Shown piece by piece: positions 488-16,884 of a DNA stretch of 64,000 nt (its first letter is position 1; every line of letters starts with the position of its first letter). The stretch comes from Cytophagales bacterium. GTDB taxonomy: Bacteria > Bacteroidota > Bacteroidia > Cytophagales > Spirosomataceae. Made by a program: the position numbers and the translations under genes. The notes below the pieces were generated by a model. That model did not search any database, had not been told where the DNA came from, and was given only the letters and a program-made list of their open reading frames with translations. Where the stretch lies: assembly GCA_013298125.1 (NCBI GenBank), contig JAAFJP010000032.1, positions 1 through 64,000 on the forward strand, read 5' to 3'.

Positions 488-1348
488 TCACCTCTTCAAT
501 TCCCGATATTCACTCGGGGAAATTCCAGTTTGTTTTTTGAATAATTTTGCAAAATAATTGGGGTATTCAAAATCTAATAAATAAGCAATTTCTGAAACTG
601 AATGAGAAGTATATTCCAAATACTTCTTTGATTCTTCTATCAAATGCTCCTGTATCACTTGCAAAGCCGATTTTCCTACTACATTCTGACAAATCCTATT
701 CAGATGTACAGCACTTACATTGAGTTCTTGGGCAAATTCTGGAATAGTTTTGTTTTTTTCTGAGGTCTTGATTAATTTTTGAAAATGCTTGAAATGCAGT
801 AAAAAAGGGCTTTTTTCTTCATAGTTACTTTCACGGTTTTGTAATATTCGTTGAATAGTTACAAACAATTGGGTGATATATGTCTGCATCATCAATTGCC
901 TTTCTGGGAAATCTCCAAATAGTTCTTTATCAATATTTCTGATGAGATTTTGTATTTCTTCAAAAGTATATTCGTCCCCGAATTTCTCAATTAATTGTGG
1001 AGATGTCAGCGAAAGTAGCGTTGATGCTTGGAAAATATTTTCAAGAATTGATACCGAAATCGTTAGAATTCGCCCCTTTACATCTGGGCTATATCTGAGT
1101 CCGTGTAATGTAGCGGGTGGAATGATAATCAGGCAAGGACTTTCGACATTTTTTTCTTGAAAACTATCCTGAAACTTTAATTTACCAGATTCTACCATAA
1201 AAATCTGAAAAAGTTTGGTATGAATGTGCGGACGAATGACCCAATCGAAGTCTTTACTTCGGGTTGAAATTAGTTCTGAAAAAATATAATCGGAAGCCAG
1301 CGAAGCATTCAGTTCGCCATACAACCCGTCATAATGTTGAAATTTCAT
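488..1348 (-). CDS. AraC/XylS-family transcriptional regulator (PobR-like), probable regulator of the gallate island
   Basis: The 286-residue protein has an N-terminal cupin-like sensor region (about 20-130, with RPHIH and a PPATLHGL stretch) and a C-terminal double helix-turn-helix of AraC type (about 195-286, ending GISPSEYR). This architecture and length are typical of aromatic-acid-responsive activators such as PobR or HpaA. The gene is divergent from the DUF3500 / HupE / tannase / transporter run, with a shared 173-bp intergenic region, so it most likely binds there and responds to gallate or a tannin-derived ester. The regulatory target is inferred from divergence. Ligand identity cannot be read from the sequence. 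Confidence 0.85.
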   Translation of the reverse strand: MKFQHYDGLYGELNASLASDYIFSELISTRSKDFDWVIRPHIHTKLFQIFMVESGKLKFQDSFQEKNVESPCLIIIPPATLHGLRYSPDVKGRILTISVSILENIFQASTLLSLTSPQLIEKFGDEYTFEEIQNLIRNIDKELFGDFPERQLMMQTYITQLFVTIQRILQNRESNYEEKSPFLLHFKHFQKLIKTSEKNKTIPEFAQELNVSAVHLNRICQNVVGKSALQVIQEHLIEESKKYLEYTSHSVSEIAYLLDFEYPNYFAKLFKKQTGISPSEYRELKR

Positions 1349-1521: not shown

Positions 1522-2901
1522 ATGAAAAGAATCATTTTTTTATCCCTGAGTTTATTCGTTTTGGTGTGGGCTTGCAAAACGACTGATACGAACGTTACGC
1601 CAAGTACCGCAACTGTTACTGCCCTGACTTGTTCATCAGTCAGTTTTTCGACAACTGCCTCCGCCAATACGGCTTACATTGGCACTGCCACAATTCCTTA
1701 TACGGGTGGTAACGGAGCGGCTTATGCGGCTGGCAGTGCTATTGCATCAACAGGCGTAACGGGCTTGTCGGCAACACTTTCCGCAAGTACGCTCACGAGT
1801 GGTGCGGGTAGCATCATCTATGCCATCACGGGTACGCCAAGCGGTGCAGGTACGGCTACTTTTGCTATCAGTTTTGGCGGACAATCTTGTAATATTGCTT
1901 TAACGGTTGGCTCTGCTCCAAGCACTGGTGGAACGGGGGCTGGCTTAGGAATCACGACTGATGTTGCTAAAATTGTAACCTTAGCGGAAGCTTTTAAAGC
2001 CACGCTCTCGGCAAGTCAGATAACAAGCCTACAATTAGTTTATTCAAAAGCCAATGCGGCAAGGTGGTCTAATTTACCAGAAGGGTTATATAAAAATCGT
2101 GTAGGATTAGCTACCAGTACGCTTTCGGCAACTCAAATGACGGCTTTCAAAAAGTTACTTCAAGCGGCAACTGGTACTGGTTCGGACGAAGGAAATACTG
2201 AAATGTTGGGTATCTTGGCAGCTGATGACTATTTGAATTCTATTGGTGGAGGTTCTGATTATGGCTCTGGGAATTATTACATCGCTTTTTTGGGAACTCC
2301 CAGTAATACAGGGCAATGGGAATTTCAGTTCGGGGGACATCATGGTACTCTTTCTAATACCTATAATTCGGGTAAACTATCAGGGTCGACACCTTCCTTC
2401 CGTTCTACTGAACCTTTCCCAGATTTTACTCAGGGAGGTGTGGCTTATAAACCGATTTTTCAAGAATTAAATGCCCTATCGGCTATGTTGAAAAGTTTGA
2501 GTGCAACGGAATTAACTACCGCAAAACGCTCAACGGCTCAGAATGATATTCAGTTAGGACCAGGGAAAGATGGTGTGTTTCCAACAACGAAAACTGGTTT
2601 GAAAGTTGGTAATTTGACGGCTACCCAAAAGGCTGCCGTATTGACTGCTATCAAAACTTATACTGACGACCTTGACGATGTTAGTGCAGCGGCTATTTTA
2701 ACTAAATACTCCTCTGAATTAGATAATACTTACATTTCTTACGCAGGAACAACAGCACTTACCCAACAAGGGGACTATGTATTAATTGACGGACCAAATG
2801 TTTGGATTGAGTTTGTGATGCAAGGCGGAGTTATCATTAGAAACGCCAATCATCCGCATTCGGTTTGGAGGGATAGAACGGGGGATTATGGTGGGAATTA
2901 G
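1522..2901 (+). CDS. DUF3500 lipoprotein with N-terminal Ig-like segment
   Basis: The start at 1522 is preferred over the upstream in-frame codon at 1441 because it gives a lipoprotein signal peptide (MKRIIFL... with lipobox Cys in VWAC). The mature protein is 459 residues: a Thr/Ser/Gly-rich, Ig-like stretch (about 30-125), then a DUF3500 domain (about 150-459) with family landmarks such as GTPSNTGQWEFQFGGHH, LGPGKDGVFP and the terminal NPHSVWRDRTGDYGG-like region (here NHPHSVWRDRTGD). DUF3500 has no established biochemical role that I know of. As first gene of the apparent tannin island, next to a HupE-like membrane protein and a tannase, it may be a cell-surface factor for polyphenol handling; that is inference from position only. 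Confidence 0.85.
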   Translation: MKRIIFLSLSLFVLVWACKTTDTNVTPSTATVTALTCSSVSFSTTASANTAYIGTATIPYTGGNGAAYAAGSAIASTGVTGLSATLSASTLTSGAGSIIYAITGTPSGAGTATFAISFGGQSCNIALTVGSAPSTGGTGAGLGITTDVAKIVTLAEAFKATLSASQITSLQLVYSKANAARWSNLPEGLYKNRVGLATSTLSATQMTAFKKLLQAATGTGSDEGNTEMLGILAADDYLNSIGGGSDYGSGNYYIAFLGTPSNTGQWEFQFGGHHGTLSNTYNSGKLSGSTPSFRSTEPFPDFTQGGVAYKPIFQELNALSAMLKSLSATELTTAKRSTAQNDIQLGPGKDGVFPTTKTGLKVGNLTATQKAAVLTAIKTYTDDLDDVSAAAILTKYSSELDNTYISYAGTTALTQQGDYVLIDGPNVWIEFVMQGGVIIRNANHPHSVWRDRTGDYGGN

Positions 2902-2920
2902 TTTAGTAATGGGTTTGACA

Positions 2921-3115
2921 GTAGGGGCGTATCGCATACGCCCTCTTGGACGATGAAACGGGCGTATGCGATACCAATGCTGTCAATTTAAGGTTTATAA
3001 TAACCTCGAAACGTAGTTTATTTCCAGTTTCAACGCTGGTAGGGTTTTGAACCCTACCAGCGTTAGTCGAACAAATTTCTTAAATTGACAGCATTGGTAT
3101 GCAATACGCCCCTAC
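2921..3115. repeat. Nested palindromic repeat, locus 1 (outer GTAGGGGCGTAT family with 126-bp inner element)
   Basis: The outer arms are the GTAGGGGCGTAT...ATACGCCCCTAC palindrome, which also occurs at 7106, 22387 and 62357. Its right half is interrupted by an inner element at 2973-3098 bounded by ACCAATGCTGTCAA / TTGACAGCATTGGT. At the centre of the inner element is the strong dyad CGCTGGTAGGG...CCCTACCAGCG. The right end of the repeat lies just before the HupE-like start codon at 3142. Confidence 0.9.
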
Positions 3116-3141
3116 ACAGCCAAACAATCGAAAATAGTCTA

Positions 3142-4488
3142 ATGATAAAATCAAAAATAGCCACTTTTCTAACAATAATATGCCTTTTCTTGGATGTAAA
3201 AGGCTTTTTGTACGCCCACCCAATGCCAAATTCTGTTGTTTTACTCAGTATTCAGCAAGATAAAATTACGGGTGAAATCCAGTTGCCATTGGGTGAATTA
3301 CAATCGGCTATTGGGATGGGTGCAAATGATAATTCGCAGGATTTGGTGAAACGTTTGGGGGGTACAATCAAGGCTTATTTATTCCAACATATTCACCCTA
3401 AAAGTTTTGATAATAAACTTTGGACGGTGGAATTGGGTGCTATGAAAGTGCTTTCTACTAAAAATCCTTTGAGTGGTGAATACAAAGAATTGGTGATTGA
3501 ATTTTCGATGAAACCACCCGCATTTTCAGACCTTCGGAATTTCTATTTTTATTACGATGTCATTGTACATCAGGTTATTACGCATAAAATTTTGATTTCG
3601 GTAAAACAAGATTGGCAACAAGGAATTGTCTCAGAAAATAAGCCCACCGAGGTAGGCATGATTGAGTTAGATATTCCTTCTGGAAAAGTGCCACCCTTTC
3701 AGATTAGCTTACAACAAGGCAGTACGTGGAAGGGTTTTGTGGGAATGTGCAAATTGGGTATCGACCATATTTCAGAAGGAACAGACCATTTGCTGTTTTT
3801 ATTGGCATTATTGCTTCCCGCCATGTTGAAGCCCCCCAGCCCCCAGAGGGGGAGCAAAATAAACTCCCCCTCTGGGGGCTGGGGGGCTTTTGGAGGAAAT
3901 CGTTATAGCTTTATCCGATTACTGAAAATTGTTACCGCTTTCACCCTCGGGCATTCCATCACACTTTTGATGGGTTCGTTGGGTTGGGTACATCTGCCGA
4001 GCCAATGGATTGAAATTGCCATTGCTTTTTCTATCTTGATTTCTGCTATCCATGCCATGAAGCCCATTTTTGCGGGTCGTGAGATTTATATTGCCAGTGG
4101 TTTTGGACTGATTCATGGTTTGGCTTTTGCCAATTCGCTGACAGATTTATCCCTCAATTCTCAACAAATGGCATTGAGTATTTTGGGGTTTAATGTGGGC
4201 ATAGAATTGATGCAGCTATTTATTATAATCCTTACTTTTCCATTTTTATTGCTTTTGAGTAGAGGTTCGTTCTATGTTATTTTTAGGAATACAGGGGCAG
4301 TTTTAGTAGCTATCTCCTCCCTTGCATGGATGATTGAACGTATCACGAACCAAGCGAATTTCATTACCCGAATTGTTGAAAATGTAGCAAATCAGGCTAT
4401 TGGGCTATATTTTGGTTTGATTATTTTATCTATAATTTCTTATTTTTATACATCAAAATCTTTATCCGAAATCAAAACTTCAAAGTAA
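3142..4488 (+). CDS. HupE/UreJ-like integral membrane protein with an in-frame repeat insertion
   Basis: I choose ATG 3142 because the upstream extension to 3085 lies in the repeat and because MIKSKIATFLT... gives a signal peptide ending near YAHPMP. The protein is 448 residues. After the signal comes a soluble domain (about 25-195) beginning HPMPNSVVLLSI, then about seven hydrophobic helices including a GTDHLLFLLALLLP segment with conserved His/Asp, as in the HupE/UreJ_2 family (putative metal or small-molecule membrane proteins). Residues about 230-249 are encoded by a GC-rich palindrome (3831-3887) inserted between membrane segments. Its stop codon overlaps the tannase start by one base. 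Function in the island is unknown; cation uptake for the metalloenzymes downstream is one possibility. Confidence 0.8.
   Translation: MIKSKIATFLTIICLFLDVKGFLYAHPMPNSVVLLSIQQDKITGEIQLPLGELQSAIGMGANDNSQDLVKRLGGTIKAYLFQHIHPKSFDNKLWTVELGAMKVLSTKNPLSGEYKELVIEFSMKPPAFSDLRNFYFYYDVIVHQVITHKILISVKQDWQQGIVSENKPTEVGMIELDIPSGKVPPFQISLQQGSTWKGFVGMCKLGIDHISEGTDHLLFLLALLLPAMLKPPSPQRGSKINSPSGGWGAFGGNRYSFIRLLKIVTAFTLGHSITLLMGSLGWVHLPSQWIEIAIAFSILISAIHAMKPIFAGREIYIASGFGLIHGLAFANSLTDLSLNSQQMALSILGFNVGIELMQLFIIILTFPFLLLLSRGSFYVIFRNTGAVLVAISSLAWMIERITNQANFITRIVENVANQAIGLYFGLIILSIISYFYTSKSLSEIKTSK
3831..3887. repeat. 57-nt GC-rich palindrome inside the hupE-like coding sequence
   Basis: GCCCCCCAGCCCCCAGAGGG and its inverse flank an AT-rich 11-nt loop. 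At 57 nt it keeps the frame and adds 19 codons (KPPSPQRGS...PSGGWG). The same family occurs in uvrA at 14977-15062. Confidence 0.9.
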
Positions 4489-5915
4489 TGAAATCCAAAA
4501 ACTCAATTCTCTCATTTTGCTCATTTTTTCTAATCTCGATAGCGTGTATAGGGCAACATTCTCTAACTTTCGACCCTTTAAAATACGTGGTTCAAACCCA
4601 AGAGTTTCAAGGAAAAACCGTAAAGGTCAGGTCTTTTGAAAAAATAATTTATGTGGCGAATCCTACTGATACAACAAAGCAAATCTTGAATATTTATGTT
4701 CCCGAAGAATATTTCAATGGCGGAACTATCAACGGCTATACGGCATCAAATGCTCCTATATTTTTTCCGAATAAAGTAGGTGGATATATGCCCGCCCAAC
4801 CCGCAACTTTTATTAATGCACAAGGCGGTGGCGGCATGGGCGGTCCTCCGAGTCAAGCCGTTGTGATGGCTTTATCGAAAGGTTTTGTGGTTGCTTCGGC
4901 GGGTGCAAGAGGGAAGATTTCGCCAATAGGAAAAGCTCCTGCGGGTATTGTAGATTTGAAGGCAGCCGTCAGATATTTGAAATTTAATGACAAAATCATG
5001 GCTGGCGATGCCGACAAAATTATTTCGAACGGCACGAGTGCGGGTGGTGCAATGTCCACTTTATTGGGAGCTACGGGCAATCATCCTGACTATGAACCCT
5101 ATCTGAAAGCCCTCGGTGCTGCCAATGCCACGGATGATATTTTTGCAGTATCGGCTTACTGCCCAATTATCAACCTCGAAAATGCCGATATGGCTTACGA
5201 ATGGCAGTTTAATCAGATTCATACTTTCAAAGGTCGAGGTGGAGAAGGCACTTTAAATGAAGCAGCTACAAAAGTTTCTGATGAATTGAAAAAGGCATTT
5301 CCGCAATATGTGAATGGGTTGAATTTGAAAGATAATAAAGGTGCGAAATTAGTATTGGATGAATCTGGCGAAGGAAATTTCAAGAAATTAGTAAAAACCT
5401 ACATCGTTGCCTCGGCACAAAAAGCCTTGGATTCGGGTGTTGATTTATCGAAACATAATTTTTTGAAAATAGAAAACAGGAAGGTAAAATCAGTAGATTT
5501 TGATAATTACCTTGTCTATATGGAACGAATGAAAACGCCTCCTGCCTTTGATGCCTTGGATAATAAATCGTTTGAGAATAATCTTTTTGGTACTAAAACT
5601 ATTGAAAATCAACACTTTACGGCATTTTCTATGCAACATTCAACGGCTACGAATGCTTCAATGGCGGACAAACAACAAATAAAAATGATGAATCCGATGA
5701 ATTATATTGGAGACAATACGGCTAAGACTTCTACGCATTGGCGAGTTAGACACGGTGCGAAAGATAGAGATACGGGGTTTGCCGTTCCAGTAATTTTAGC
5801 CACAACTTTACAAAATAAAGGTTTCAAAATAGATTTCGCTTTGCCTTGGGACAAACCCCACAGTGGCGATTATGACCTTGAAGAGCTGTTTGATTGGATA
5901 AAAGAATTGAAATAA
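4488..5915 (+). CDS. Subtype-B tannase (tannin acyl hydrolase), exported
   Basis: The 475-residue protein has a signal peptide (about 1-22) and an alpha/beta-hydrolase fold. The nucleophile elbow NGTSAGGAMS places Ser184 as catalytic, with Asp near 426-428 (HGAKDRDT) and His458 (DKPHSGDY) completing the triad, the pattern of Lactobacillus-type bacterial tannases. It would hydrolyse galloyl esters in hydrolysable tannins and release gallate in the periplasm. It is translationally coupled to the HupE-like gene (one-base overlap) and followed 16 nt later by an aromatic-acid transporter, then by gallate ring-degradation genes, which strongly supports the assignment. A feruloyl-esterase-like activity is a less likely alternative. 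Confidence 0.87.
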   Translation: MKSKNSILSFCSFFLISIACIGQHSLTFDPLKYVVQTQEFQGKTVKVRSFEKIIYVANPTDTTKQILNIYVPEEYFNGGTINGYTASNAPIFFPNKVGGYMPAQPATFINAQGGGGMGGPPSQAVVMALSKGFVVASAGARGKISPIGKAPAGIVDLKAAVRYLKFNDKIMAGDADKIISNGTSAGGAMSTLLGATGNHPDYEPYLKALGAANATDDIFAVSAYCPIINLENADMAYEWQFNQIHTFKGRGGEGTLNEAATKVSDELKKAFPQYVNGLNLKDNKGAKLVLDESGEGNFKKLVKTYIVASAQKALDSGVDLSKHNFLKIENRKVKSVDFDNYLVYMERMKTPPAFDALDNKSFENNLFGTKTIENQHFTAFSMQHSTATNASMADKQQIKMMNPMNYIGDNTAKTSTHWRVRHGAKDRDTGFAVPVILATTLQNKGFKIDFALPWDKPHSGDYDLEELFDWIKELK

Positions 5916-5931
5916 TAAGACCACTAAAATC

Positions 5932-7101
5932 ATGAAAAATCAAACCCTATCCACTATTCTCATCTGTTTTTTGATGAATATGCTTGATGGCATGGACGTT
6001 ATGGTAGTGTCTTATGCCTCTCCTAAAATTTCCAAAGATTGGTCAATTAGTCCGCAATCCTTAGGAATTGTATTCAGTGCAGGATTATTAGGAATGTCAA
6101 TCGGGGCGATGTTCCTTGCCCCAAGAGCCGATAAAATTGGCAGAAAGTCCATGATTTTGATTTGCAATATCATCATGGGCGTAAGCGTATTTGCGACTTC
6201 TTATGCAAATTCAGTTGAAATGCTTACTTTCTTTCGGGTAATTAGTGGCATTGGCATTGGTGGAATGTTGGCAAGTACCGCCACTTTAACCGCTGAGAAT
6301 GCACCCACAAAAACCAAGGATTTTTGGGTGAGTTTTGTCATGTCGGGTTATCCCATCGGAGCAGTAATTTCGGGTTTAGTAGCTGCCAACATTATTCCAA
6401 AATATGGTTGGCAGTCGATGTTTCAAGTAGCAGGAATCACTACTTTTATTACACTTCCAATTGTATTTTTATATTTGAAAGAATCAATGGAATTTTTAGA
6501 TAAATCGGTAGTAAAGAAAAGTCCAGCAGTAGGAGTATTATTAAAGGACAATTATAAAAAATCTACGCTCATGCTTTGGATTGCTATTTTTATGGCTTTT
6601 GCGAGTTTATATTTCCTCACTACTTGGATTCCAAAATTAGCATCGGTAACGGGACTTTCAGTTGAATTGGCAATTTATGCAGGAACAGTTTTCAATTTAG
6701 GAGCATTCTGTGGTATTGTATCACAAGGATATTTTTCTGGAAAATTTGGTTTACAAAAAACCATCTTTTCGTACCTCATACTTACCGCTTTGATGATGCT
6801 TATTTTCGGGTTTTTCAAAGGTTCAATACTCGTTTTAGTTCTCTTTGGACTAATTGGCTTTGGAATTCAAGGTGGTTTTGTGGGAATGTATAGTTTAGCT
6901 GCACGTTTATATCCGACCGAAATTAGAGCTACGGGTGTAGGTTGGGCTGTTGGAGCAGGTAGAATTGGAGCAATCTTTGGACCACTTTTAGGTGGATTTC
7001 TCATCGGTGCAGGTTTTTCGATGACGACTAATTTTATGATTTTTGCCATTCCAACGCTGATTGGTGGAGTAGCAACTTTATATGTTTCGATAAAGGAATA
7101 A
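5932..7101 (+). CDS. MFS transporter, aromatic acid:H+ symporter (AAHS) type, probable gallate importer
   Basis: The 389-residue protein has about 12 hydrophobic segments. An early LDGMDVMVVSYASP motif in TM1 resembles the DG(F/M)D signature of the AAHS group, followed by a loop 2-3 GRKSMI motif. AAHS members such as PcaK and GalT carry hydroxybenzoates inward with protons. Position directly after the tannase suggests that it imports the released gallate across the inner membrane. It is slightly short for the family (usually about 430-450). Substrate is inferred from context. Confidence 0.85.
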   Translation: MKNQTLSTILICFLMNMLDGMDVMVVSYASPKISKDWSISPQSLGIVFSAGLLGMSIGAMFLAPRADKIGRKSMILICNIIMGVSVFATSYANSVEMLTFFRVISGIGIGGMLASTATLTAENAPTKTKDFWVSFVMSGYPIGAVISGLVAANIIPKYGWQSMFQVAGITTFITLPIVFLYLKESMEFLDKSVVKKSPAVGVLLKDNYKKSTLMLWIAIFMAFASLYFLTTWIPKLASVTGLSVELAIYAGTVFNLGAFCGIVSQGYFSGKFGLQKTIFSYLILTALMMLIFGFFKGSILVLVLFGLIGFGIQGGFVGMYSLAARLYPTEIRATGVGWAVGAGRIGAIFGPLLGGFLIGAGFSMTTNFMIFAIPTLIGGVATLYVSIKE

Positions 7102-7105
7102 TGTT

Positions 7106-7297
7106 GTAGGGGCGTATCGCCTACCAATGCTGTCAATTTAAGAAATTTGTTCGACTAACGCTGGTAGGGTTTTGAACCCTACCAGCGTTCAAACGGGGTT
7201 ATTAAATATATTTTGACAAAAGTAAATCCTTAAGTTGACAGCATTGGTATCGCATACACCCGTTTCTTCCGTGGACGTATGCGATACGCCCCTGCCA
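7106..7297. repeat. Nested palindromic repeat, locus 2 (inner 126-bp element in opposite orientation to locus 1)
   Basis: The outer family is the same GTAGGGGCGTAT palindrome as at 2921. Here its left half is interrupted by the inner element at 7123-7248, also 126 bp and with the same ACCAATGCTGTCAA / TTGACAGCATTGGT ends, but reversed: the AGAAATTTGTTCGACTAACG arm is on the left here and on the right at locus 1. It lies between the transporter gene and the dioxygenase gene. Confidence 0.9.
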
Positions 7298-7316
7298 CAA
7301 AAACATTAAAAAATAA

Positions 7317-8270
7317 ATGAATAACATTACTTGGGAATTGGCACATCTTGCTCATGTTGAGCTACTTACGCCAAAATTAGAAGAAAGTACAAAATTTTTT
7401 ACCGATATATTGGGAATGTATATTTCCGAGATAAAAGGCGATTCAGTCTATCTACGTGCATACGACGACTACGAACATCATACTCTCAAACTCACTGCTC
7501 ACAAACATTCAGGGATAGGGCATTTTGCGTGGAGAACCAGAACTCCAGAAGCTCTTGAAGACAGAGTAAAAGCCATCGAAGCCACAGGTTTAGGCATTGG
7601 TTGGGAAGACCATGAATGTGGCTATGGCAAAGCCTACAAATTCCGTTATCCAGATGGTCATATTTGTGAACTTTATTTTGAGTCTAACAAATTCAAAGCA
7701 GATGAAAACACCAAGTCAGCGTTGAAAAATACCAACAGCAAATTCCCAGGACGTGGCATGAACGTTAGAAGAATTGACCACTTAAATTTATTAGCAAAAG
7801 ACATCGTTGCGTTCCGTGATTTTCAGTTTGGCGTTTTGGGTGGACGAATGACCGAAACCATCATTTTTGACGATGAACCAAAAGGCGTTTGGGTTTCGGT
7901 AAACTCCAAATCTTATGACTTAGCCATCACAGAAGACCACTCAGGCATGAATGGACGTTTTCATCATGTAACTTATGTCGTAAACAGTCGAGAAGAGGTA
8001 TTAATTGCCGCAGATATAGCCTTAGAAAACGGTATTTTTATTGAAACTGGTCCTCACAAACACGCAATTCAACAAACGTTTTTCTTGTATTTATACGAAC
8101 CAGGCGGCAATAGAATTGAGGTAGCCAATCCAACCGCAAGACTTATTTTAGACCCAGATTATGAAACTATCGTTTGGAACAAAGAAGAACGCATGAAAGG
8201 ACAGGCTTGGGGACTGAAAACTGTTGAGAGTTTTCATACAAGAGGGAATCCTATGCCGCATGAGTTATGA
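7317..8270 (+). CDS. Two-domain type I (VOC) extradiol dioxygenase, candidate gallate/catecholic acid dioxygenase
   Basis: The 317-residue protein consists of two vicinal-oxygen-chelate modules (about 8-122 and 150-275). The second carries the complete iron site: His155 (RRIDHLNLL), His217 (GRFHHVTYVV) and Glu268 (EPGGNRIEV). The spacing is almost that of homoprotocatechuate 2,3-dioxygenase (H155/H214/E267). The tail with VWNKEERMKGQAWGL is typical of catechol 2,3-dioxygenase-like enzymes. It lies between a tannase/transporter pair and genes that metabolise 4-oxalomesaconate, the product of gallate 4,5-cleavage. Known gallate dioxygenases (GalA, DesB) are unrelated LigAB-type proteins, so this may be a non-orthologous replacement. 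Protocatechuate or catechol cleavage remains possible. Confidence 0.85.
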   Translation: MNNITWELAHLAHVELLTPKLEESTKFFTDILGMYISEIKGDSVYLRAYDDYEHHTLKLTAHKHSGIGHFAWRTRTPEALEDRVKAIEATGLGIGWEDHECGYGKAYKFRYPDGHICELYFESNKFKADENTKSALKNTNSKFPGRGMNVRRIDHLNLLAKDIVAFRDFQFGVLGGRMTETIIFDDEPKGVWVSVNSKSYDLAITEDHSGMNGRFHHVTYVVNSREEVLIAADIALENGIFIETGPHKHAIQQTFFLYLYEPGGNRIEVANPTARLILDPDYETIVWNKEERMKGQAWGLKTVESFHTRGNPMPHEL

Positions 8271-8271
8271 G

Positions 8272-8590
8272 TTATACGAGTTCCATTTTTTCGAGATACA
8301 CAGGAATAATGTCGCTTTCAGGTATATTTTGGGTCAATCAATCTTTCGTAGAGCGTAGGGTCTATGCTTTCTTCGTGGATAAGTATCTTATCTTCTGTAA
8401 TTTCGACATGAGCTACTACATTGTAATAATGCTTATTGTTGTGCCAGCCGTTAAGTATCAAAATAAATTCTGATTGGCTATCATTGATAATTAAATGATT
8501 ACTCAACGTAGGTCTGTTGTTGGGAACACGTTTGGCTAAATTTTCTAAGATATTTTTAACCGATATTTTATATTGATTTATTCTATCCAT
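8272..8590 (-). pseudogene. XisI-like protein gene, probably frameshifted near the 3' end
   Basis: The intact frame (8590 to 8318, 90 residues) begins MDRINQYKISVKNILENLAK and contains GWHNNKHYYNVVAHVEI and KILIHEES, resembling XisI (fdxN-element excision controlling factor family, normally about 110 residues). It stops abruptly after IDPKYT. Slipping one base just after the K codon (about 8326, next to an A-run) opens 17 more family-like residues, IPESDIIPVYLEKMELV, ending at 8272-8274, two bases after the convergent dioxygenase stop. No XisH partner is present. Either a degraded gene or a sequencing slip; the family link is moderate. Confidence 0.6.
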
Positions 8591-8649
8591 GTTTATTTTT
8601 TATCATGAGTTTAATTTATACAAAAATAAATTATTTTACGGAATGTCTA

Positions 8650-8830
8650 TTATTAAGCAGACTACATTTAAGGTTGAATTTCTCCGAAGTTTATAAATAG
8701 CTACTTACTTTTTCCACAAAGGTTAAACCTCTCAGAGGTATATTCCACATAATTTCGGAGAAATTTAACCTTTGTAGAAAAGTAATAACCTCAGACTACT
8801 GGCTTCGGAGAAGCCCAACCTTGAATCCGT
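8650..8830. repeat. Complex imperfect palindrome upstream of galB-like gene
   Basis: Two nested inverted pairs are visible: AAGGTTGAATTTCTCCGAAG near 8671 with CTTCGGAGAAGCCCAACCTT near 8804, and ACTTTTTCCACAAAGGTTAAA near 8710 with TTTAACCTTTGTAGAAAAGT near 8767. The 290-base gap between the xisI-like start and the galB-like start holds little else; no clear promoter. Confidence 0.6.
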
Positions 8831-8880
8831 TGAATAGTAGATAGTTCCGTTATTTTATTAGAAAAACGTTAAATCAAAAA

Positions 8881-9600
8881 ATGAAAAAGAAACTATTAGT
8901 CATAAGTGCCCACAGTGCTGATTTCGTTTGGAGGTCAGGAGGTACAATAGCAAAATCAGTAGAAGAAGGAGCTGAAACCTTAGTAGTTTGCCTTTCTTTT
9001 GGAGAACGTGGCGAATCAGGCGAACTTTGGAAAGAAGACCCTAATCGTACTGAAGAAAGTGTGAAAATCATTCGCAAAGCACAAGCACAACAAGCCGCTG
9101 ATATTTTTGGAACACCCATTATGTTCTTAGATTGGGGCGATTATCCGATGTTGATTTCGGATGAAAGAATAGCACAATTAACCAAAATAATTGGTGATTT
9201 TGAGCCGACAGTTATCTTGACGCATACTGCCAAAGACCCTTTCAACCCTGACCATCCTTTGGCTTATCAGGCAACGGAGAGGGCAAGATTACTTTCGTGT
9301 GGTGCGGGCGTTGCCAGTGCCTTCAAGAATATTGACCCGCCGATGTGGTATTCATTTGAGCCTCATCAGCCCGAAATTTGCGAGTTCAAACCCGATACTT
9401 TCATAGATATTTCTTCGGTTTTTGATAAAAAAAATGCCGCCATGAACTGCATGGGAGCTCAAAAATATCTCGTAGAATATTATACCGAATTGGGAGGAAG
9501 AAGGGCAAATCATGCCCGTAGAATTTCGGGACAAAAAGATATAAAATACGCTGAGGCTCATCAAAGTCACTTGCCGAGGGTAACGGATAGTATATTTTGA
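8881..9600 (+). CDS. galB: 4-oxalomesaconate hydratase, GalB type (PIG-L fold)
   Basis: The 239-residue protein belongs to the PIG-L/LmbE metal-hydrolase fold, but has the GalB version of the metal motif, AHSADFVWRSGG, in place of AHPDDE. It shares other landmarks I recall from Pseudomonas putida GalB: VVCLSFGERGES, WGDYPM, DPFNPDHPLA and SFEPHQPEICEFKPDTF. GalB hydrates the enol form of 4-oxalomesaconate to 4-carboxy-4-hydroxy-2-oxoadipate. It follows the dioxygenase gene after the xisI-like insertion and repeat region. Family resemblance is extensive, so the assignment is strong although unrun by search. Confidence 0.9.
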   Translation: MKKKLLVISAHSADFVWRSGGTIAKSVEEGAETLVVCLSFGERGESGELWKEDPNRTEESVKIIRKAQAQQAADIFGTPIMFLDWGDYPMLISDERIAQLTKIIGDFEPTVILTHTAKDPFNPDHPLAYQATERARLLSCGAGVASAFKNIDPPMWYSFEPHQPEICEFKPDTFIDISSVFDKKNAAMNCMGAQKYLVEYYTELGGRRANHARRISGQKDIKYAEAHQSHLPRVTDSIF

Positions 9601-9635
9601 CTAATGTTTGATTAAAAAACATCAACCATTCAACA

Positions 9636-10280
9636 TTACTCGTTACTCATCAAATTCAGAACTAAGGCTTTGCATTTTTTTAGAATGGCGAAAATTGTAT
9701 AAATATCGTCGTCCGATGCATTATAGGCGTTACTCAAAACGTATTTATCTCTCTCCAAAACTACGAAAAACCAGTTACGACCAGATGTATAAGTACCAAA
9801 GATAGGCAATTTATTTTCATTTTTGTATTGAGCTGCCACCATCGCAATTAAGAGCTGCCCCAGAGGGTCATTATCTCTTCTGTTTTCTTGCTTATATTCG
9901 TGAAGACAGAAATAAGGCAATTTGGGAATAACTTTTCCTTTTGCTAACAAGAAATCCACCTTGCCCGAAGCTGATACCGTGGGGGTTTCTATTGTGAGTG
10001 TACGTTGAGTAAAAGGCTTAAAATATGGAGTTTTAAAATTGACCAAAGACATTAGTGGACCAATGAAAAAGAGTTTCATCTCATCTTCATTCCAGTTTTT
10101 AGCTTCCTCAAAAAGCAATTGTCTAAGTTCTTCTAAACCTTCTCTTTGCCTATCATTAGGCGAATATTCTGGTTCGGAGGGAGCATTAAGCCAGTCGGTA
10201 TAAAGTGGCGTTTTTTCCACAGGCTGGATTCTCATAATGTCCTCAACCTCTTCATAAGTCCAAGTTTCAAATGAACGCAT
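9636..10280 (-). CDS. Uncharacterised PD-(D/E)XK nuclease-like protein, inserted against the gal genes
   Basis: Start 10280 is chosen (MRSFETWTYEEVEDIMRI); the upstream extension to 10316 runs into the gap before galC. The protein is 214 residues. Residues about 106-130 show a core reminiscent of PD-(D/E)XK enzymes: GKVDFLL (Asp109) followed by LHEYKQE (Glu128, Lys130). I recognise the type as an uncharacterised Cytophagales protein; whether it cuts DNA is unknown. It lies on the opposite strand between the galB-like and galC-like genes and so interrupts the operon, suggesting a later insertion. Confidence 0.6.
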   Translation of the reverse strand: MRSFETWTYEEVEDIMRIQPVEKTPLYTDWLNAPSEPEYSPNDRQREGLEELRQLLFEEAKNWNEDEMKLFFIGPLMSLVNFKTPYFKPFTQRTLTIETPTVSASGKVDFLLAKGKVIPKLPYFCLHEYKQENRRDNDPLGQLLIAMVAAQYKNENKLPIFGTYTSGRNWFFVVLERDKYVLSNAYNASDDDIYTIFAILKKCKALVLNLMSNE

Positions 10281-10322
10281 AGCTTTACTTGTTATGTTTT
10301 TAGTAAAATTAAACAAAAAATA

Positions 10323-10940
10323 ATGACTATAATTGAAAAGCTCTCAAAATTCAGTGCTGCAACGCTCCATGAAGCCCTCGGGAAAACGGGTAATTTACCT
10401 TCGGGTATCAAACCAATAAGTTCAAAAATGAAAGTTTGTGGACCTGCTTTTACCGTAAAAACCATGCCTTGCGACAATATGCTCCTACATCGTGCCTACG
10501 CTTACGCAAAGGCAGGAGATGTTTTAGTAGTTAATTGTTCAAATTTTTACGAAGCTGGATATTGGGGTGATTTAATGAGTCTGGGGGCAAAAACAAAAGG
10601 CATCAATGGCTTAGTAATAGATGCTTGCGTGCGGGATGCCGATGATATTGAAGCCATGAGCTTTCCAGTTTTCAGTCGTGGGTTGTGCATTCGTGGTACT
10701 TCAAATCATGGCGATGGTACACTTAACGAACCTATTATTATTGGCGATGTACTGATAAATCCAGGAGATTATATCGTGGGAGACCGTGACGGTGTTGTTG
10801 TAATTCCACAAAACCGTATCGAAGAAGTTATCGAAAAAGCCATTGCCCGAGAAGCCAAAGAAGAACGTACAAGGGAAGAATTGAGAAAGGGCAGAACTTC
10901 TTTGCAAATCTATGGGTGGGATGAAAAATATGGGTATTGA
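10323..10940 (+). CDS. galC: 4-carboxy-4-hydroxy-2-oxoadipate aldolase (RraA-like), GalC/LigK type
   Basis: The 205-residue protein is of the RraA / HMG-CHA aldolase fold. Landmarks are the GKTGNLP start region, WGDLMSLGAKTKGI, the active-site stretch DACVRDADDI (Arg and Asp that bind pyruvate and the divalent metal) and VGDRDGVVVIP. Enzymes of this type split 4-carboxy-4-hydroxy-2-oxoadipate into pyruvate and oxaloacetate, the last step of the gallate/protocatechuate 4,5 pathway. RraA ribonuclease-regulator proteins share the fold, but the galB/galD context favours the aldolase. The next gene starts one base after its stop, implying coupling. Confidence 0.87.
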   Translation: MTIIEKLSKFSAATLHEALGKTGNLPSGIKPISSKMKVCGPAFTVKTMPCDNMLLHRAYAYAKAGDVLVVNCSNFYEAGYWGDLMSLGAKTKGINGLVIDACVRDADDIEAMSFPVFSRGLCIRGTSNHGDGTLNEPIIIGDVLINPGDYIVGDRDGVVVIPQNRIEEVIEKAIAREAKEERTREELRKGRTSLQIYGWDEKYGY

Positions 10941-10941
10941 T

Positions 10942-11721
10942 ATGATAAATAATAAATTAACTATTGCAATTTTAGGCTTAGGCGAAGCAGGTTCACATTT
11001 TGCCAATGACTTAGCAAATATGGGCGTGAATGTTATCGGCTATGACCCAAATCCTGTGCGGGTTTTACATGAAAATATCGTTTTAGCAACAAATAATTTG
11101 GAAGCTACCCGAAATGCAGATATTATTTTTAGCGTAAATCTGTTCTCAGTTTCCGAAGAAATCGCTCGTGAAGTAATGCCCATTTTGAATGAATCAAAGA
11201 TTTATTTAGAGATGAATACGTCTTCGCCCGATAAGAAAATTGCGATTTACGAAACCCTAAAATCAACGGGAATACAATACGTGGACTTGGCAATTATGGC
11301 TCCTGTACCACCCAAAGGCATCAAAACACCCTTTTTAGCTTCGGGAAATGGAGCAAAAATTTTCCAAGAAAAAGTAAAAGACCTAAACTTAAATCTTTCT
11401 GTTTTGAGTGATGTTGTAGGTGAAGCCTCTACTCGCAAACTCTTGCGTTCAATCGTGTATAAGGGCGTAGCAGCAGTGATTTGCGAAGCAATGGAAGCAG
11501 GACAAAAATTTGGTTTGGAAAATTACATCCGTGAACAAATCAGTTCGGTCATTGGTGGAAATGACGACTTGATTGACCGTTTTGTGGAAGGTAGCAAAAC
11601 CCACGCCCTCAGACGTATGCACGAAATGGAGGCTGTGGTTGAGATGCTAAAAGACCAAGATTTAGAGCCAATTATGAGTGAAGCAACAAGAGAAAATTTA
11701 GAAAAACTATTGAATAATTAA
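10942..11721 (+). CDS. 6-phosphogluconate dehydrogenase-like NAD(P)-binding protein (DUF1932 C-terminal domain)
   Basis: ATG 10942 is chosen because it follows the galC stop by one base; the extension to 10912 lies inside galC. The protein has a Rossmann NAD(P)-binding half (about 1-165, ILGLGEAGSHFANDLANMG) and a helical DUF1932-like half (about 190-255, with RRMHEMEAVVEML). It sits between galC and galD with tight spacing. The textbook gallate route needs no dehydrogenase here, so it may act on a side-chain or reduced intermediate, or on another aromatic acid feeding the same route. No substrate can be inferred. Confidence 0.75.
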   Translation: MINNKLTIAILGLGEAGSHFANDLANMGVNVIGYDPNPVRVLHENIVLATNNLEATRNADIIFSVNLFSVSEEIAREVMPILNESKIYLEMNTSSPDKKIAIYETLKSTGIQYVDLAIMAPVPPKGIKTPFLASGNGAKIFQEKVKDLNLNLSVLSDVVGEASTRKLLRSIVYKGVAAVICEAMEAGQKFGLENYIREQISSVIGGNDDLIDRFVEGSKTHALRRMHEMEAVVEMLKDQDLEPIMSEATRENLEKLLNN

Positions 11722-12806
11722 TGCAAAACTCCATTCCATTCATGCAAATCCGAGGGGGAAGTTCCAAAGGGCTTTTCTTTCAAGCAAAAGACTTACCTAC
11801 GGATGAAAACCTTCGTAATGACTTGATTTTGAAGGCAATGGAAGGTACAACCGAAGGCGACCCTCGACAAATTGACGGTTTGGGAGGAGCAAATTCATTA
11901 ACCAGTAAAGTTGCCATCGTAAGCCCTTCTACCAATCCTGATTGGGATTTAGACTATTTTTTTATTCAAGTAGTTGTTGGGAAAGGCAAAGTTTCAACCA
12001 CGCAAACCTGCGGAAATATCTTAGCGGGCGTATTGCCTTTTGCCATCGAATCGGGCATGATTAAGGCAGATTCGCCCACCACTTCGGCAAAAATTAATAT
12101 CGTCAATACGGGAGGAATTTGTGAATGTGTAGTGCAAACACCCAATGGAAAAGTCGAATATTCGGGTGATACAAAAATTGATGGCGTTGTCGGAACATCT
12201 GCCCCAATTATCTGTAATTATTTAGATACCGCAGGGGCAACTTGTGGCTCAATGCTTCCCACGGGCAATAATATTGATGTTTTTGATGGCATAGAAACCA
12301 CCTGTATCGACAACGGAATGCCCCTCGTAATCATGCGTGCGAGAGATTTTGGGCTTTCGGGAAATGAAAGTAAGGAAGATTTGGATGCCAACGAAGATTT
12401 AAAAAAGAAGATAGAAAATATCCGTTTACAGGCAGGTTTTCTGATGAATCTGGGCGATGTTTCCGAACAAACCATTCCCAAAATGTGCCTAATTTCTCCT
12501 GCCCAACATGGAGGAGTTGTAAATACCAGAATGTTTATCCCTCATGTAGTCCACGAAGCAATAGGCGTTTTAGCAGCCGTTTCTGTAGCAACGGCTTGTA
12601 TTCTACCATATTCAGTCTGTTCGAGAACTACCCCTAATCCCCAATCCCTAACCCCTAACCCCCAATTTTCGATTGAGCATCCTTCGGGAGAATTTACGGT
12701 TAATCTTGAATATGAATCTGTTGATAATCAGGTGATTATTCATAAGTCGGGGGTGATTCGGACGGCGAGATTATTGAGTAAGGGAGAGGTTTTTGTTGTG
12801 GCGTAA
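11721..12806 (+). CDS. galD: 4-oxalomesaconate tautomerase, GalD type (PrpF family)
   Basis: The 361-residue protein is of the PrpF isomerase family: MQIRGGSSKGLFFQAKDLP at the start, GLGGANSLTSKVAIV, TCGNILAGVLPFAIE and LISPAQHGGVVNTRMF later. GalD converts the keto form of 4-oxalomesaconate, formed after gallate ring opening, to the enol used by GalB. Its start overlaps the preceding stop by one base. Near residues 304-316 a run of five heptamers (12631-12665) encodes TPNPQSLTPNPQ, an insertion-like segment in an otherwise well-behaved protein. The alternative, a PrpF aconitate isomerase, is disfavoured by context. Confidence 0.88.
   Translation: MQNSIPFMQIRGGSSKGLFFQAKDLPTDENLRNDLILKAMEGTTEGDPRQIDGLGGANSLTSKVAIVSPSTNPDWDLDYFFIQVVVGKGKVSTTQTCGNILAGVLPFAIESGMIKADSPTTSAKINIVNTGGICECVVQTPNGKVEYSGDTKIDGVVGTSAPIICNYLDTAGATCGSMLPTGNNIDVFDGIETTCIDNGMPLVIMRARDFGLSGNESKEDLDANEDLKKKIENIRLQAGFLMNLGDVSEQTIPKMCLISPAQHGGVVNTRMFIPHVVHEAIGVLAAVSVATACILPYSVCSRTTPNPQSLTPNPQFSIEHPSGEFTVNLEYESVDNQVIIHKSGVIRTARLLSKGEVFVVA
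12631..12665. repeat. Five tandem heptamers inside galD
   Basis: Units are cccctaa, tccccaa, tccctaa, cccctaa and cccccaa. A 7-nt period read in triplets yields a 7-residue protein repeat. Confidence 0.85.
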
Positions 12807-13901: not shown

Positions 13902-16823
13902 TTACAAAACCTTCCCCTTCAAGAAGTCCGCCGTGTAATTCCCCTCAATCTTCACCATTTCCTCTGGTGTGCCTTCAAACGTAATGTAACCGCCTTTTTC
14001 GCCTCCTTCTGGACCGATGTCGATGATGTGGTCTGCCGATTTTATGACTTCCATGTTGTGTTCGATGATGATAACCGAATCGCCCTGTTCAACCAACGCA
14101 TTGATGGCTTTTAGGAGTTTTTTGATGTCGTGGAAATGTAAACCTGTGGTGGGTTCATCGAAAATAAAGAGTGTTTTTCCTTTGTTTGGATTGCCTTTGC
14201 CTAAGAAACTTGCTAATTTCACCCGTTGGGCTTCTCCACCCGACAATGAACTTGACGACTGCCCTAATTTGACATACCCCAAGCCTACTTCTTGCAAGGG
14301 CAACAATTTTTCCACTAATTTCGGTTGGTCTTTACTGAATAATTCAATGGATTCGTCCACGGTCATGTCCAAAATGTCGGCAATGTCGTTTTCGTGATAT
14401 TTTACGTCTAAAACTTCTTGTTTAAATCTCTTCCCTCCGCACGACTCGCATTTGAGTTTTACGTCTGCCATAAACTGCATTTCGATGGTTACAAAGCCTT
14501 CGCCTTGACAAGTTTCGCAACGTCCGCCTTCCACATTAAAAGAGAAACTGCCTGGTTTATATCCTCTTGATTTGGCAACGGGCAATTCTGAAAACAACAA
14601 ACGAATTTGGTCATAAGCCTTCACGTAAGTCACTGGATTTGAGCGAGATGACTTCCCGATTGGATTTTGGTCAATCATTTCTACGGATTCAATTTTACCG
14701 ATACTGCCCGCCATTTCACCAAATTTTCCTGATTCGTCGGTGTATGTTCCTAAGTGTTTTCCGAGGGCTGGGTATAAAATTTTACGTACCAAAGTAGATT
14801 TTCCAGAGCCACTTACGCCTGTAACCACATTGAGAATTCCCAAAGGAAATTTTACCGAAACATCCTTTAAATTATTCTCGTAAGCCCCTTTTATTTCGAT
14901 ATGACTGGTTGATTTTCTGCGAAATTTTGGGACTTCAATTTTGTCAGTGCCAAGGAGAAAATTTAGGGTGTGCGATAGCCCCCCAACCCCCAGAGGGGGA
15001 GCTACCGATTCCCAATCAGTGATATTATGTTCAGTGGCTCCTCCTCTGGGGGCGGGGGGGGCGATTTGTAACACCAACTCTCCTCCGTTTCTTCCTGCAT
15101 CGGGTCCAATGTCGATAATTTGGTCGGCGGCACGCATCACTTCTTCTTCGTGTTCTACCACGATTACGGTGTTGCCCATGTCTCGCAAAGATTCCAAAAC
15201 AGACACCAATCTGAGCGTATCTCTTGGGTGCAAACCGATGCTTGGTTCGTCCAAAATATACATTGAACCCACCAAGGCACTACCCAAAGAAGTAGCCAAT
15301 TTTATCCGTTGAAATTCACCGCCCGAAAGCGTGGAAGACAAGCGATTTAAACTCAAATATCCCAAGCCCACTTTGTTCATGTATTCCAAACGAGCATTGA
15401 TTTCTTGAAGGATTCTTTTTGATACACCTAATTGATAATCAGGGAGTTGCAGGTTATTGAAAAACGCTACGACATCCGTAATCGGCATCAAAACTAAGTC
15501 GATGATAGACCTCCCTCCTACCTTCACATACCCTGCATCTTGGCGTAGTCGTGAGCCTTTGCACTCGGGGCATGAGGTACGCCCACGATAGCGTGAGAGC
15601 ATCACTCGATACTGGATTTTGTGGGTCTCGGCTTCCAACATTTTGAAGAACGCATCCAAGCCCGTAAAGTATTGATTTCCAGTCCATAACAGAGCCTTTT
15701 GCTCGTCAGTAAGGTCTTTGTAAGGTCGGTGAATTGGGAAGTCGAATTTTGTTCCGTTTTTGATTAATGGAATCAAATATTCGCTCATTTTTTCGGTACG
15801 CCACGGAGCAATTGCCCCTTCGTAAATGGAAACACCTTTATCAGGAATTATCAAGTCGGGGTCAAGTCCTAAAATTCTCCCAAAACCCTCGCAACGCTTG
15901 CAAGCACCGTAGGGATTATTGAAGCTAAAAAGATTGAGGGAAGGCTCTTCAAACAACATTCCATCTGCCTCAAATTTATCAGAAAACACTTTCGTTTCTC
16001 CTCCAAAAACTTCCACAAAACACGCTCCGTCACCCTCAAAAAAGGCAGTTTGCACAGAATCCGATAGTCTAAATTGAGTTTCTTCTTCGGGCTGACCGTT
16101 TTCGTCTTTTTTGACTGCCACACGGTCAATCAGAATTTTATAATTATTAGCAAAGAGGTCAATGGGAGGCAGTTTTTTCAGTTCCTCCTTATTTTCCAAT
16201 AACTCTTCTAAAAATTTTATCTCTCCATCAATCACAATTCGAGTATAACCTTTCTGAATCAAGACCTTCATTTCCTCAACCAATTTTCTTTCTTGTTTCA
16301 AGAAAAAAGGTGCGAGAATCATCACACGGGTCGATTCTTCTAAGGTAAAAATATAATCCACCACGTCCGAAATGGTGTCTTTGGTAACTTCCTTACCCGT
16401 TACAGGCGAGTATGTTACGCCCGCACGAGCGAAGAGTAATTTCAGATAATCATAAATTTCAGTAGTTGTGCCAACCGTCGAGCGAGGGTTTTTGGTAGAA
16501 ACTCTTTGCTCAATGGCAATGGCTGGCGAAATGCCCTTGATATAATCTACATCGGGTTTTTCCATCCGTCCCAAAAACTGGCGAGTGTATGAACTCAGAC
16601 TTTCCACGTACATCCGTTGTCCCTCCGCAAAGAGCGTATCAAAAGCCAAAGACGACTTCCCCGAACCCGATAAACCCGTGATTACCACCAACTTATTGCG
16701 TGGAATGGCAACATCAATATTTTTAAGATTATTAACTCTCGCCCCTTTGATGATGATAAAACGCTTAGGGTCAAGGTCTTCGATTGCGGTATGATTTTGA
16801 TTCTGGATTTCGGTAATATTCAT
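13902..16823 (-). CDS. uvrA: Excinuclease ABC subunit A
   Basis: UvrA is the ATP-driven damage-recognition subunit of nucleotide excision repair. The 973-residue protein shows both ABC modules: Walker [10 protein letters not shown] near residue 45, two signature motifs LSGGE(F/A)QR, a second Walker [10 protein letters not shown], and Cys-x2-Cys zinc pairs (CKRC, CPEC, CETC, CESC). I prefer ATG 16823 (MNITEIQ); an in-frame ATG at 16856 would add 11 residues. The linker after the first ATPase half carries about 29 extra codons from a GC-rich palindrome (14977-15062), rich in Pro/Gly. It is followed by a toxin-antitoxin pair. Confidence 0.97.
14977..15062. repeat. 86-nt GC-rich palindrome inserted in frame in uvrA
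   Basis: AGCCCCCCAACCCCCAGAGG and its imperfect inverse (CTCCTCTGGGGGCGGGGGGG) flank a loop of about 35 nt. On the coding strand it gives [13 protein letters not shown]... and PPLGVGG. It is the same family as 3831-3887, and falls where UvrA normally has an EGTPEE-like linker. Confidence 0.88.
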
Positions 16824-16884
16824 GAATTTAGGGGATAGTGATGAGGAGTATTTCACCTTCTAAATCACTGGTAAAAGTATGTAA

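Follow-up and report, generated by a model that had tools for sequence, protein, structure and literature searches.

The DNA analyzed here is a window of 64,000 nucleotides (bases 1-64000 of a 70,526-base contig) from the 5.85-Mb genome of a Cytophagales bacterium of the family Spirosomataceae. Towards its left end lies a gene cluster that we propose, from gene context and with a probability of roughly 0.8, to be an operon for the catabolism of galloyl esters and gallate, in which the aromatic ring would be opened by an extradiol dioxygenase (EDO) of the VOC fold, non-homologous to the LigB-type gallate dioxygenase GalA. The cluster is ordered as follows: AraC (minus strand), DUF3500, HupE-like, tannase, MFS, EDO, a XisI-like open reading frame (ORF; minus strand), a dispersed repeat, galB, a further minus-strand ORF, galC, a DUF1932 dehydrogenase (DH) and galD. 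The genes assigned to the operon are:

488-1348, minus strand: divergent regulator of the AraC family that probably controls the operon (PF12833/PF00165/PF02311)
1522-2901, plus strand: DUF3500 protein with an ATG at 1522 (PF12006, 204 bits)
3142-4488, plus strand: HupE/UreJ_2-like membrane protein (PF13795, 149.5 bits)
4488-5915, plus strand: subtype B tannase, a tannin acylhydrolase (NF041556, 646 bits against a cut-off of 300)
5932-7101, plus strand: GalT-like MFS protein of the aromatic acid:H+ symporter type, presumed to import gallate (best match TIGR00895; PF07690)
7317-8270, plus strand: EDO, extradiol dioxygenase of type I (VOC) that is proposed to act on gallate (PF00903)
8881-9600, plus strand: GalB-type PIG-L 4-oxalomesaconate (2-keto-4-carboxy-3-hexenedioate, KCH) hydratase (PF02585)
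10323-10940, plus strand: GalC, 4-carboxy-4-hydroxy-2-oxoadipate (CHA) aldolase (NF006731, 205.9 bits against a cut-off of 179)
10912-11721 (start possibly 10924), plus strand: DH, 6PGDH-like NAD(P) dehydrogenase with a DUF1932 domain, gal-cluster accessory (PF03446 and PF09130)
11721-12806, plus strand: GalD, PrpF-family 4-oxalomesaconate (OMA) tautomerase (NF033377, 484.4 bits against a cut-off of 440)

In the proposed pathway, the tannase would release gallate from galloyl esters outside the cytoplasm, its N-terminal hydrophobic stretch (judged by eye) suggesting export, and the MFS symporter would take gallate into the cell. EDO would then cleave the ring to OMA, which the tautomerase GalD, the hydratase GalB and the aldolase GalC would convert to pyruvate and oxaloacetate, probably under the control of the divergent AraC-type regulator. 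OMA is described as the direct product of gallate cleavage (PMC12314914). The analysis shows the gene families present, their conserved order, the alternation of EDO with LigB-type enzymes and, in 200 genomes of the family, no match that reaches the cut-off of the LigB gallate dioxygenase model; the substrate, the position of ring cleavage, export, transport and regulation, and, from gene context, the turnover of gallate to OMA by EDO, are what we infer. A search of the open-access literature, with subscription journals mostly outside its coverage, showed among the papers listed neither a type I gallate dioxygenase belonging to a gal cluster nor a gal pathway in Bacteroidota.

All genes named in the first-pass annotation are ORFs at the positions it gave, and its tannase, CHA aldolase and GalD-like tautomerase exceed the cut-offs of the models cited above. 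The tannase also matches the solved tannase 6yq4 (E 8e-133). The GalB-like hydratase is a PIG-L protein scoring 231.6 bits against PDB 5cgz, deposited as 4-oxalmesaconate hydratase, and is 48% identical to Pseudomonas GalB. Pfam likewise bears out the descriptions given for the DUF3500, HupE-like (HupE_UreJ_2) and 6PGDH-like/DUF1932 proteins. For the aromatic-acid transporter, TIGR00895 is the best match, but the score of 323.4 bits lies below the cut-off of 418.55. The regulator is present and divergent, but at 488-1348 it lies outside the span 1522-12806 originally assigned to the cluster; its nearest curated model is TIGR02297 (HpaA), at 129.8 bits, below the cut-off of 274.65. A route from galloyl esters through gallate to pyruvate and oxaloacetate finds good support in the gene families and the comparative context, but it departs from that of Pseudomonas in having an enzyme of the VOC and not the LigB type for ring opening. 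That detail had escaped the first reading, as had the two minus-strand ORFs and the dispersed repeat that break the gene run.

EDO is a glyoxalase/VOC protein of 317 amino acids (aa), which PF00903 matches in two stretches. The closest curated model, TIGR03211 (catechol 2,3-dioxygenase), gives 307.5 bits, short of its cut-off of 320.2, and the copy from Pantoea scores 291.5 bits. Alignment with AphC and homoprotocatechuate 2,3-dioxygenase (HPCD) places the metal ligands at H155, H217 and E268, which are invariant in 48 sequences. The AlphaFold (AF2) model (mean pLDDT 90.1) has AphC structures 7q2a and 3lm4, of the same fold, as its top Foldseek matches. The two-domain VOC fold and the His-His-Glu ligands are those by which a type I extradiol dioxygenase is recognized. 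On its sequence, EDO is a type I, catechol-2,3-dioxygenase-like enzyme, of a superfamily different from LigB/type II GalA; AromaDeg assigns gallate dioxygenases to the LigB superfamily (PMC4250580).

Characterized and solved VOC enzymes share this fold to differing degrees. AphC is 39% and HPCD about 22-27% identical to EDO, and both have aligned His-His-Glu ligands. The EDO subfamily carries residues K198, Y200 and R292; Lys198 and Arg292 occur in neither AphC nor HPCD. All three residues are shared with the closest solved sequence, PDB 9wgj (50% identity), whose deposited name, 'Catechol 1,2-dioxygenase', does not fit a VOC/EDO family protein; no paper under that code was found in the open-access literature. 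Catechol 2,3-dioxygenase BLC23O of Bacillus ligniniphilus resembles EDO in type, but it has 283 aa and is described as broad-specificity. It is reported to have lowered the phenolic content of gallic acid by 14% in 6 h, and the part of the account available names neither the reaction product nor a gal cluster (PMC9925492). The genome also encodes a second VOC extradiol dioxygenase (G000:C12:36148-37047, i.e. L152:8128-9114), 36% identical to EDO and flanked by pyranose-oxidase-like, FAD monooxygenase-like and fumarylacetoacetase-like genes; it apparently belongs to a different pathway, and similar copies (34-40%) are found in many genomes of the family.

Conservation of the cluster was examined in a sample of 200 genomes of the same family. 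A close EDO was found in 31 of them, comprising 30 near full-length copies with at least 65% identity (that of the window included) and one fragment of 144 residues. Loci were fetched from 27 of the 29 other genomes with a near full-length copy; the remaining two (L066 and L073) also carry galB. galB lies beside EDO in all 27 family loci, galC is present in 26 (once split in two pieces), galD in 25 (one in two pieces; both loci lacking it end at a contig edge) and DH in 23. An AraC match was detected in 26 loci, divergent from EDO in 25, while the remaining one is on the same strand and at only 29%. In this comparison of orthologues and synteny, which the first-pass annotation had called for, the order EDO-galB-galC-(DH)-galD is kept across the family, and this is more than chance. 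DUF3500 (8/27, position varying) and the HupE-like gene adjoining it (6/27), both counted at ≥60% coverage, are less frequent. In some other loci, a PF00135 carboxylesterase stands between galB and galC, or EDO has a BD-FAE esterase in its vicinity. This variety suggests that one core is fed from different ester sources.

The LigB gallate dioxygenase model NF009904 exceeded its cut-off in none of the 200 family genomes, the one weak hit being a 19.6-bit stretch with stops. It had no match at all in the genome carrying the window, and no LigB-type GalA was found among the ten proteins of the cluster that were scanned. Tannase B scored above cut-off in 16 family genomes, 14 of which are among the 31 with EDO (Fisher p 2.3e-11, kinship ignored), and in three of these 14 (G053, G066 and G078) tannase and EDO lie on separate contigs. 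Of the other 184 genomes, 17 have EDO.

An alternation between the two types of ring-cleaving enzyme is visible when galB loci of named genomes are compared. A GalB-alignment scan of genome contigs returned at least 583 relatives, and the best 80 were kept, a set biased towards the GalB of the window and drawn partly from the same genomes as the 27 family loci. EDO only was present in 47 loci, a LigB-type enzyme only in 7, both in none and neither in 26. Among the 28 Bacteroidota loci, 27 contain EDO; the exception is L088. Similarly, among the best 60 galB places of 105 plasmid records (partner within 10 kb), a VOC enzyme was found in 43 (about 22 once near-identical plasmids are collapsed), a LigB-type enzyme in 4, both in none and neither in 13; this last count is an upper bound, the comparison having been confined to the 60 top rows out of 314 records for the VOC enzyme and 184 for GalA.

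Individual replicons illustrate the alternation. A Pantoea piersonii plasmid carries a VOC enzyme, as in the window, with galT, galR (minus strand) and galB-galC-galD-DH, while a Klebsiella aerogenes plasmid has galT-galA, galR (minus strand) and galB-galC-galD-DH, with GalA instead of the VOC enzyme. This GalA and its P. oryzihabitans counterpart share 70% identity, and the latter reaches a score of 798 with the model for gallate dioxygenase. We considered whether the VOC enzyme occupies the exact slot of galA and rejected this: the neighbours are alike, but the order and orientation of the dioxygenase gene and galT differ. Unlike the window, both clusters have a LysR regulator, and no tannase is annotated in the stretches examined. 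Rhizobium sp. SL42 and Agrobacterium vitis have the order galB-VOC-galC-galD, with VOC enzymes 53-54% identical to EDO. The dehydrogenase is not peculiar to the window cluster, to which the first-pass annotation had regarded it as an addition: plasmids of Klebsiella, Pantoea and Sodalis carry a DH-like oxidoreductase (28-31% match) immediately after galB-galC-galD.

The gal system of Pseudomonas putida KT2440 (galTAP/galBCD, GalR) has GalB, GalC and GalD homologues in common with the window; both systems include an aromatic-acid MFS transporter and a dedicated regulator, and the proposed end products are alike (PMC12314914). They differ in the ring-cleaving enzyme, which is LigB/type II in KT2440 (GalA; PMC4250580) and VOC/type I in the window, and in the regulator, LysR in the former and AraC in the latter. 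Unlike KT2440 gal, the operon of the window includes a tannase, and no porin was recognized among the ten scanned proteins. DesB of Sphingobium sp. SYK-6 opens the gallate ring as proposed for EDO, but it is a type II extradiol enzyme (PMC3962378).

Several observations weigh against assigning the cluster, or the EDO subfamily in general, to gallate. Full-length tannase is present in only 9 of the 27 family loci and an MFS gene near the cluster in only 7 (one at 33%), which puts both outside the constant core; two of the 16 tannase-B genomes (G029 and G135) lack EDO. His200 of HPCD is a catalytic residue, and EDO has Tyr at this position. K198/Y200 occur in all 27 family loci and in 40 of the 47 EDOs of named genomes, the other seven, all actinobacterial and all in DUF6282 loci, having A/H instead. 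The pair was nevertheless rejected as a gallate fingerprint, since Thermus, Roseomonas and Methylobacterium copies have both residues, so that their presence is no proof of gallate as substrate. Neither ring-cleaving enzyme lies within reach in 26 of the 80 best galB loci, and only three of the seven LigB-type loci (L140, L142 and L143) match GalA at ≥50%; L088, L107 and L116 match it at 41-43%, and L112 weakly (27%, 78 bits). Among the 26 loci with neither enzyme, DUF6282 is present in 24 and a galD match in three, and ten ORFs scanned from four of them included no recognizable ring cleaver; these loci may represent another pathway.

Further points of this kind come from EDO loci outside Bacteroidota. 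galD was found in 23 of the 47 EDO loci of named genomes, and the 24 without it comprise five Bacteroidota contigs ending near galB/galC, seven Chloroflexota and 12 Actinomycetota. A galD match is thus absent from 19 of the 20 named EDO-galB loci outside Bacteroidota (Chloroflexota 7, Actinomycetota 12/13), the galC match in such loci reaches only 29-43%, and DUF6282 occurs in 11 of the 47. Taken together, the general lack of galD, the weak galC and DUF6282 indicate that the wider subfamily may have other substrates. In Thermus oshimai, EDO is accompanied by DUF6282 and by genes for a 4-hydroxybenzoate 3-monooxygenase and an aldehyde dehydrogenase, and the 12.7 kb examined contains no annotated galD; likewise, no galB is annotated in the 17 kb examined for the Roseomonas and Methylobacterium copies. 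Neither the presence of galD elsewhere nor the arrangement of the Pantoea and Klebsiella genes underlies the claim made for the window cluster and Bacteroidota. DUF6282 matches were found in 37 of the 115 loci compared, the query's own included, for example in actinobacterial L102, L117 and L120 and Thermus L144; 24 of the 37 belong to the 26 galB loci with no recognized ring cleaver, possibly a separate pathway with GalB-like hydratases.

GalB-, GalC- and GalD-type enzymes serve the protocatechuate 4,5-cleavage route too, and the cluster could on that account belong to protocatechuate catabolism: EDO would yield 4-carboxy-2-hydroxymuconate-6-semialdehyde (CHMS), which would be oxidized either by the DUF1932 enzyme or by a dehydrogenase encoded elsewhere, and GalD, GalB and GalC would finish the pathway. 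The Thermus oshimai neighbourhood, with its monooxygenase and aldehyde dehydrogenase genes, is in keeping with such a role, as is a 4-hydroxybenzoate 3-monooxygenase match at the far edge of three of the 27 family loci (L047, L048 and L060), which also counts against gallate. However, in L048, the one of these three that was scanned, a complete pcaDC-pcaH-pcaG-pcaIJ-pcaF-pcaB (3,4-cleavage) operon lies between the monooxygenase gene and the EDO cluster, so protocatechuate already has a route there. The branch from protocatechuate to OMA needs extra enzymes, and no LigB-type dioxygenase, CHMS dehydrogenase (LigC) or 2-pyrone-4,6-dicarboxylate (PDC) hydrolase (LigI) was found among the ten window proteins scanned. 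The DUF1932 enzyme was rejected as a CHMS dehydrogenase: it follows galBCD also where GalA cleaves the ring. Four tblastn probes from plasmid clusters, representing one aldehyde dehydrogenase, two amidohydrolases and DUF6282 but no LigC-like dehydrogenase, matched none of the 27 family loci. L088, the sole 4,5-cleavage-like locus among the 28 from Bacteroidota, uses a LigB-type dioxygenase; the region L088:5507-13388, from a Saprospiraceae metagenome-assembled genome, encodes two 4-hydroxybenzoate-3-monooxygenase-like proteins, the LigB-type dioxygenase, an inositol-dehydrogenase-like (LigC-like) protein, GalB, GalC and a lactone-hydrolase-like (LigI-like) protein, and looks like what a protocatechuate 4,5-cleavage cluster would resemble in Bacteroidota. 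Since the tannase, too, indicates gallate, we consider protocatechuate an unlikely substrate.

Still less probable, in our view, are two other explanations. Syringate-derived 3-O-methylgallate as the substrate, with a cluster esterase acting as a methylesterase on the ring-cleavage product, has a precedent in Pseudomonas sp. NGC7, in which 3-O-methylgallate enters GalDBC via MgaAB, MgaC and MgaD (PMC12314914), and carboxylesterases do occur in some family loci. However, the esterase of the window is a subtype B tannase, no O-demethylase was recognized among the ten proteins scanned, and the 3-O-methylgallate dioxygenase of NGC7 is described as having alpha and beta subunits (PMC12314914). It is equally doubtful that EDO belongs to another pathway, as a generalist catechol 2,3-dioxygenase located here by chance, while an unlinked LigB enzyme opens gallate. 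TIGR03211 is indeed the top-scoring model for EDO, and the genome does encode two PF02900 (LigB) proteins; both have about 280-320 aa and, judged by eye, look YgiD/DODA-like. With the gallate dioxygenase model unmatched in this genome, a LigB enzyme encoded elsewhere was rejected as the gallate opener. The constant pairing of galB with EDO in the family, and the lack of any locus with both EDO and a LigB-type enzyme among the 80 best galB loci, also speak against a generalist. A gallate operon with EDO as its ring-opening enzyme remains the reading that we prefer.

With regard to origin, an EDO tree joins the Bacteroidota enzymes and that of the window in one group of 28 (SH-aLRT 100), adjoining Chloroflexota. 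The tree was built by a quick method, in which PDB_7q2a and PDB_HPCD sit on long branches and are unreliably placed, and only the 28-row Bacteroidota group was used; the 27 family loci, partial duplicates of the named genomes, were left out. The first-pass annotation had presented the cluster as an island, yet the EDO/gal module is also found in contigs labelled Cytophagales, Chitinophagales and Sphingobacteriaceae, and a relative, Arcicella aurantiaca DSM 22214 (L070), has these genes too. In a phylum sample, GalB (E ≤ 1e-30) was detected in two of 395 genomes, namely that of the window and another of its family, and this patchy spread fits a possible horizontal transfer.

It is likely, in our estimation, that gallate ring opening evolved twice. 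A type I (VOC) subfamily, currently labelled either 'catechol 2,3-dioxygenase' or 'VOC family protein', would be the usual cleaver in Bacteroidota gal clusters and would also serve Rhizobiaceae and some Pantoea plasmids, whereas LigB-type GalA performs this step in Pseudomonas and Klebsiella. The galD-less relatives in Chloroflexota, Actinomycetota and Thermus would form a broader subfamily that may act on other substrates.

The gene run of the window is interrupted by three elements that lie outside the pathway:

8318-8590, minus strand: XisI-like ORF interrupting the operon (PF08869, 57 bits)
8660-8835, no strand assigned: dispersed repeat of about 160 bp with inverted-repeat ends, between EDO and galB
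9636-10280, minus strand: ORF between galB and galC

The XisI-like ORF has a single partial match (23%) among the 27 relatives' loci. The ORF at 9636-10280 has no match in these loci and, scanned over 9636-10277, gives no Pfam hit with E ≤ 0.01. The dispersed repeat yields 39 matching rows genome-wide (both strands, self included). A palindromic repeat is inserted in frame within the HupE-like gene (approximately 3829-3889) and within the uvrA gene at 13902-16856 (14965-15075); it occurs at dozens of genomic sites, the two copies yielding 53 and 68 rows, respectively, with both strands counted. The HupE copy forms a near-perfect hairpin (minimum free energy -66 kcal/mol). At its site, five of the six alignable HupE proteins of relatives show a gap of 10-11 residues, and the uvrA product has extra residues compared with a solved UvrA. 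The repeat is reminiscent of the protein-coding palindromic elements of Rickettsia. At the left contig end, positions 37-438 encode a peptidyl-arginine deiminase of the Porphyromonas type, of which the C-terminal portion is present (PF04371, profile positions 192-321 of 321).

Gallate comes from hydrolysable tannins, and in the literature covered its ring opening by bacteria is described via LigB-type enzymes. Should the VOC enzyme prove to be a gallate dioxygenase, GalA-based searches would be overlooking clusters of this kind, and a family annotated as catechol 2,3-dioxygenase would acquire a specific substrate. The Tyr at the position of HPCD His200 poses a mechanistic question. If EDO does open gallate, the gal clusters compared here would provide a clear case of two unrelated superfamilies being interchangeable for one ring-opening step in otherwise similar clusters.

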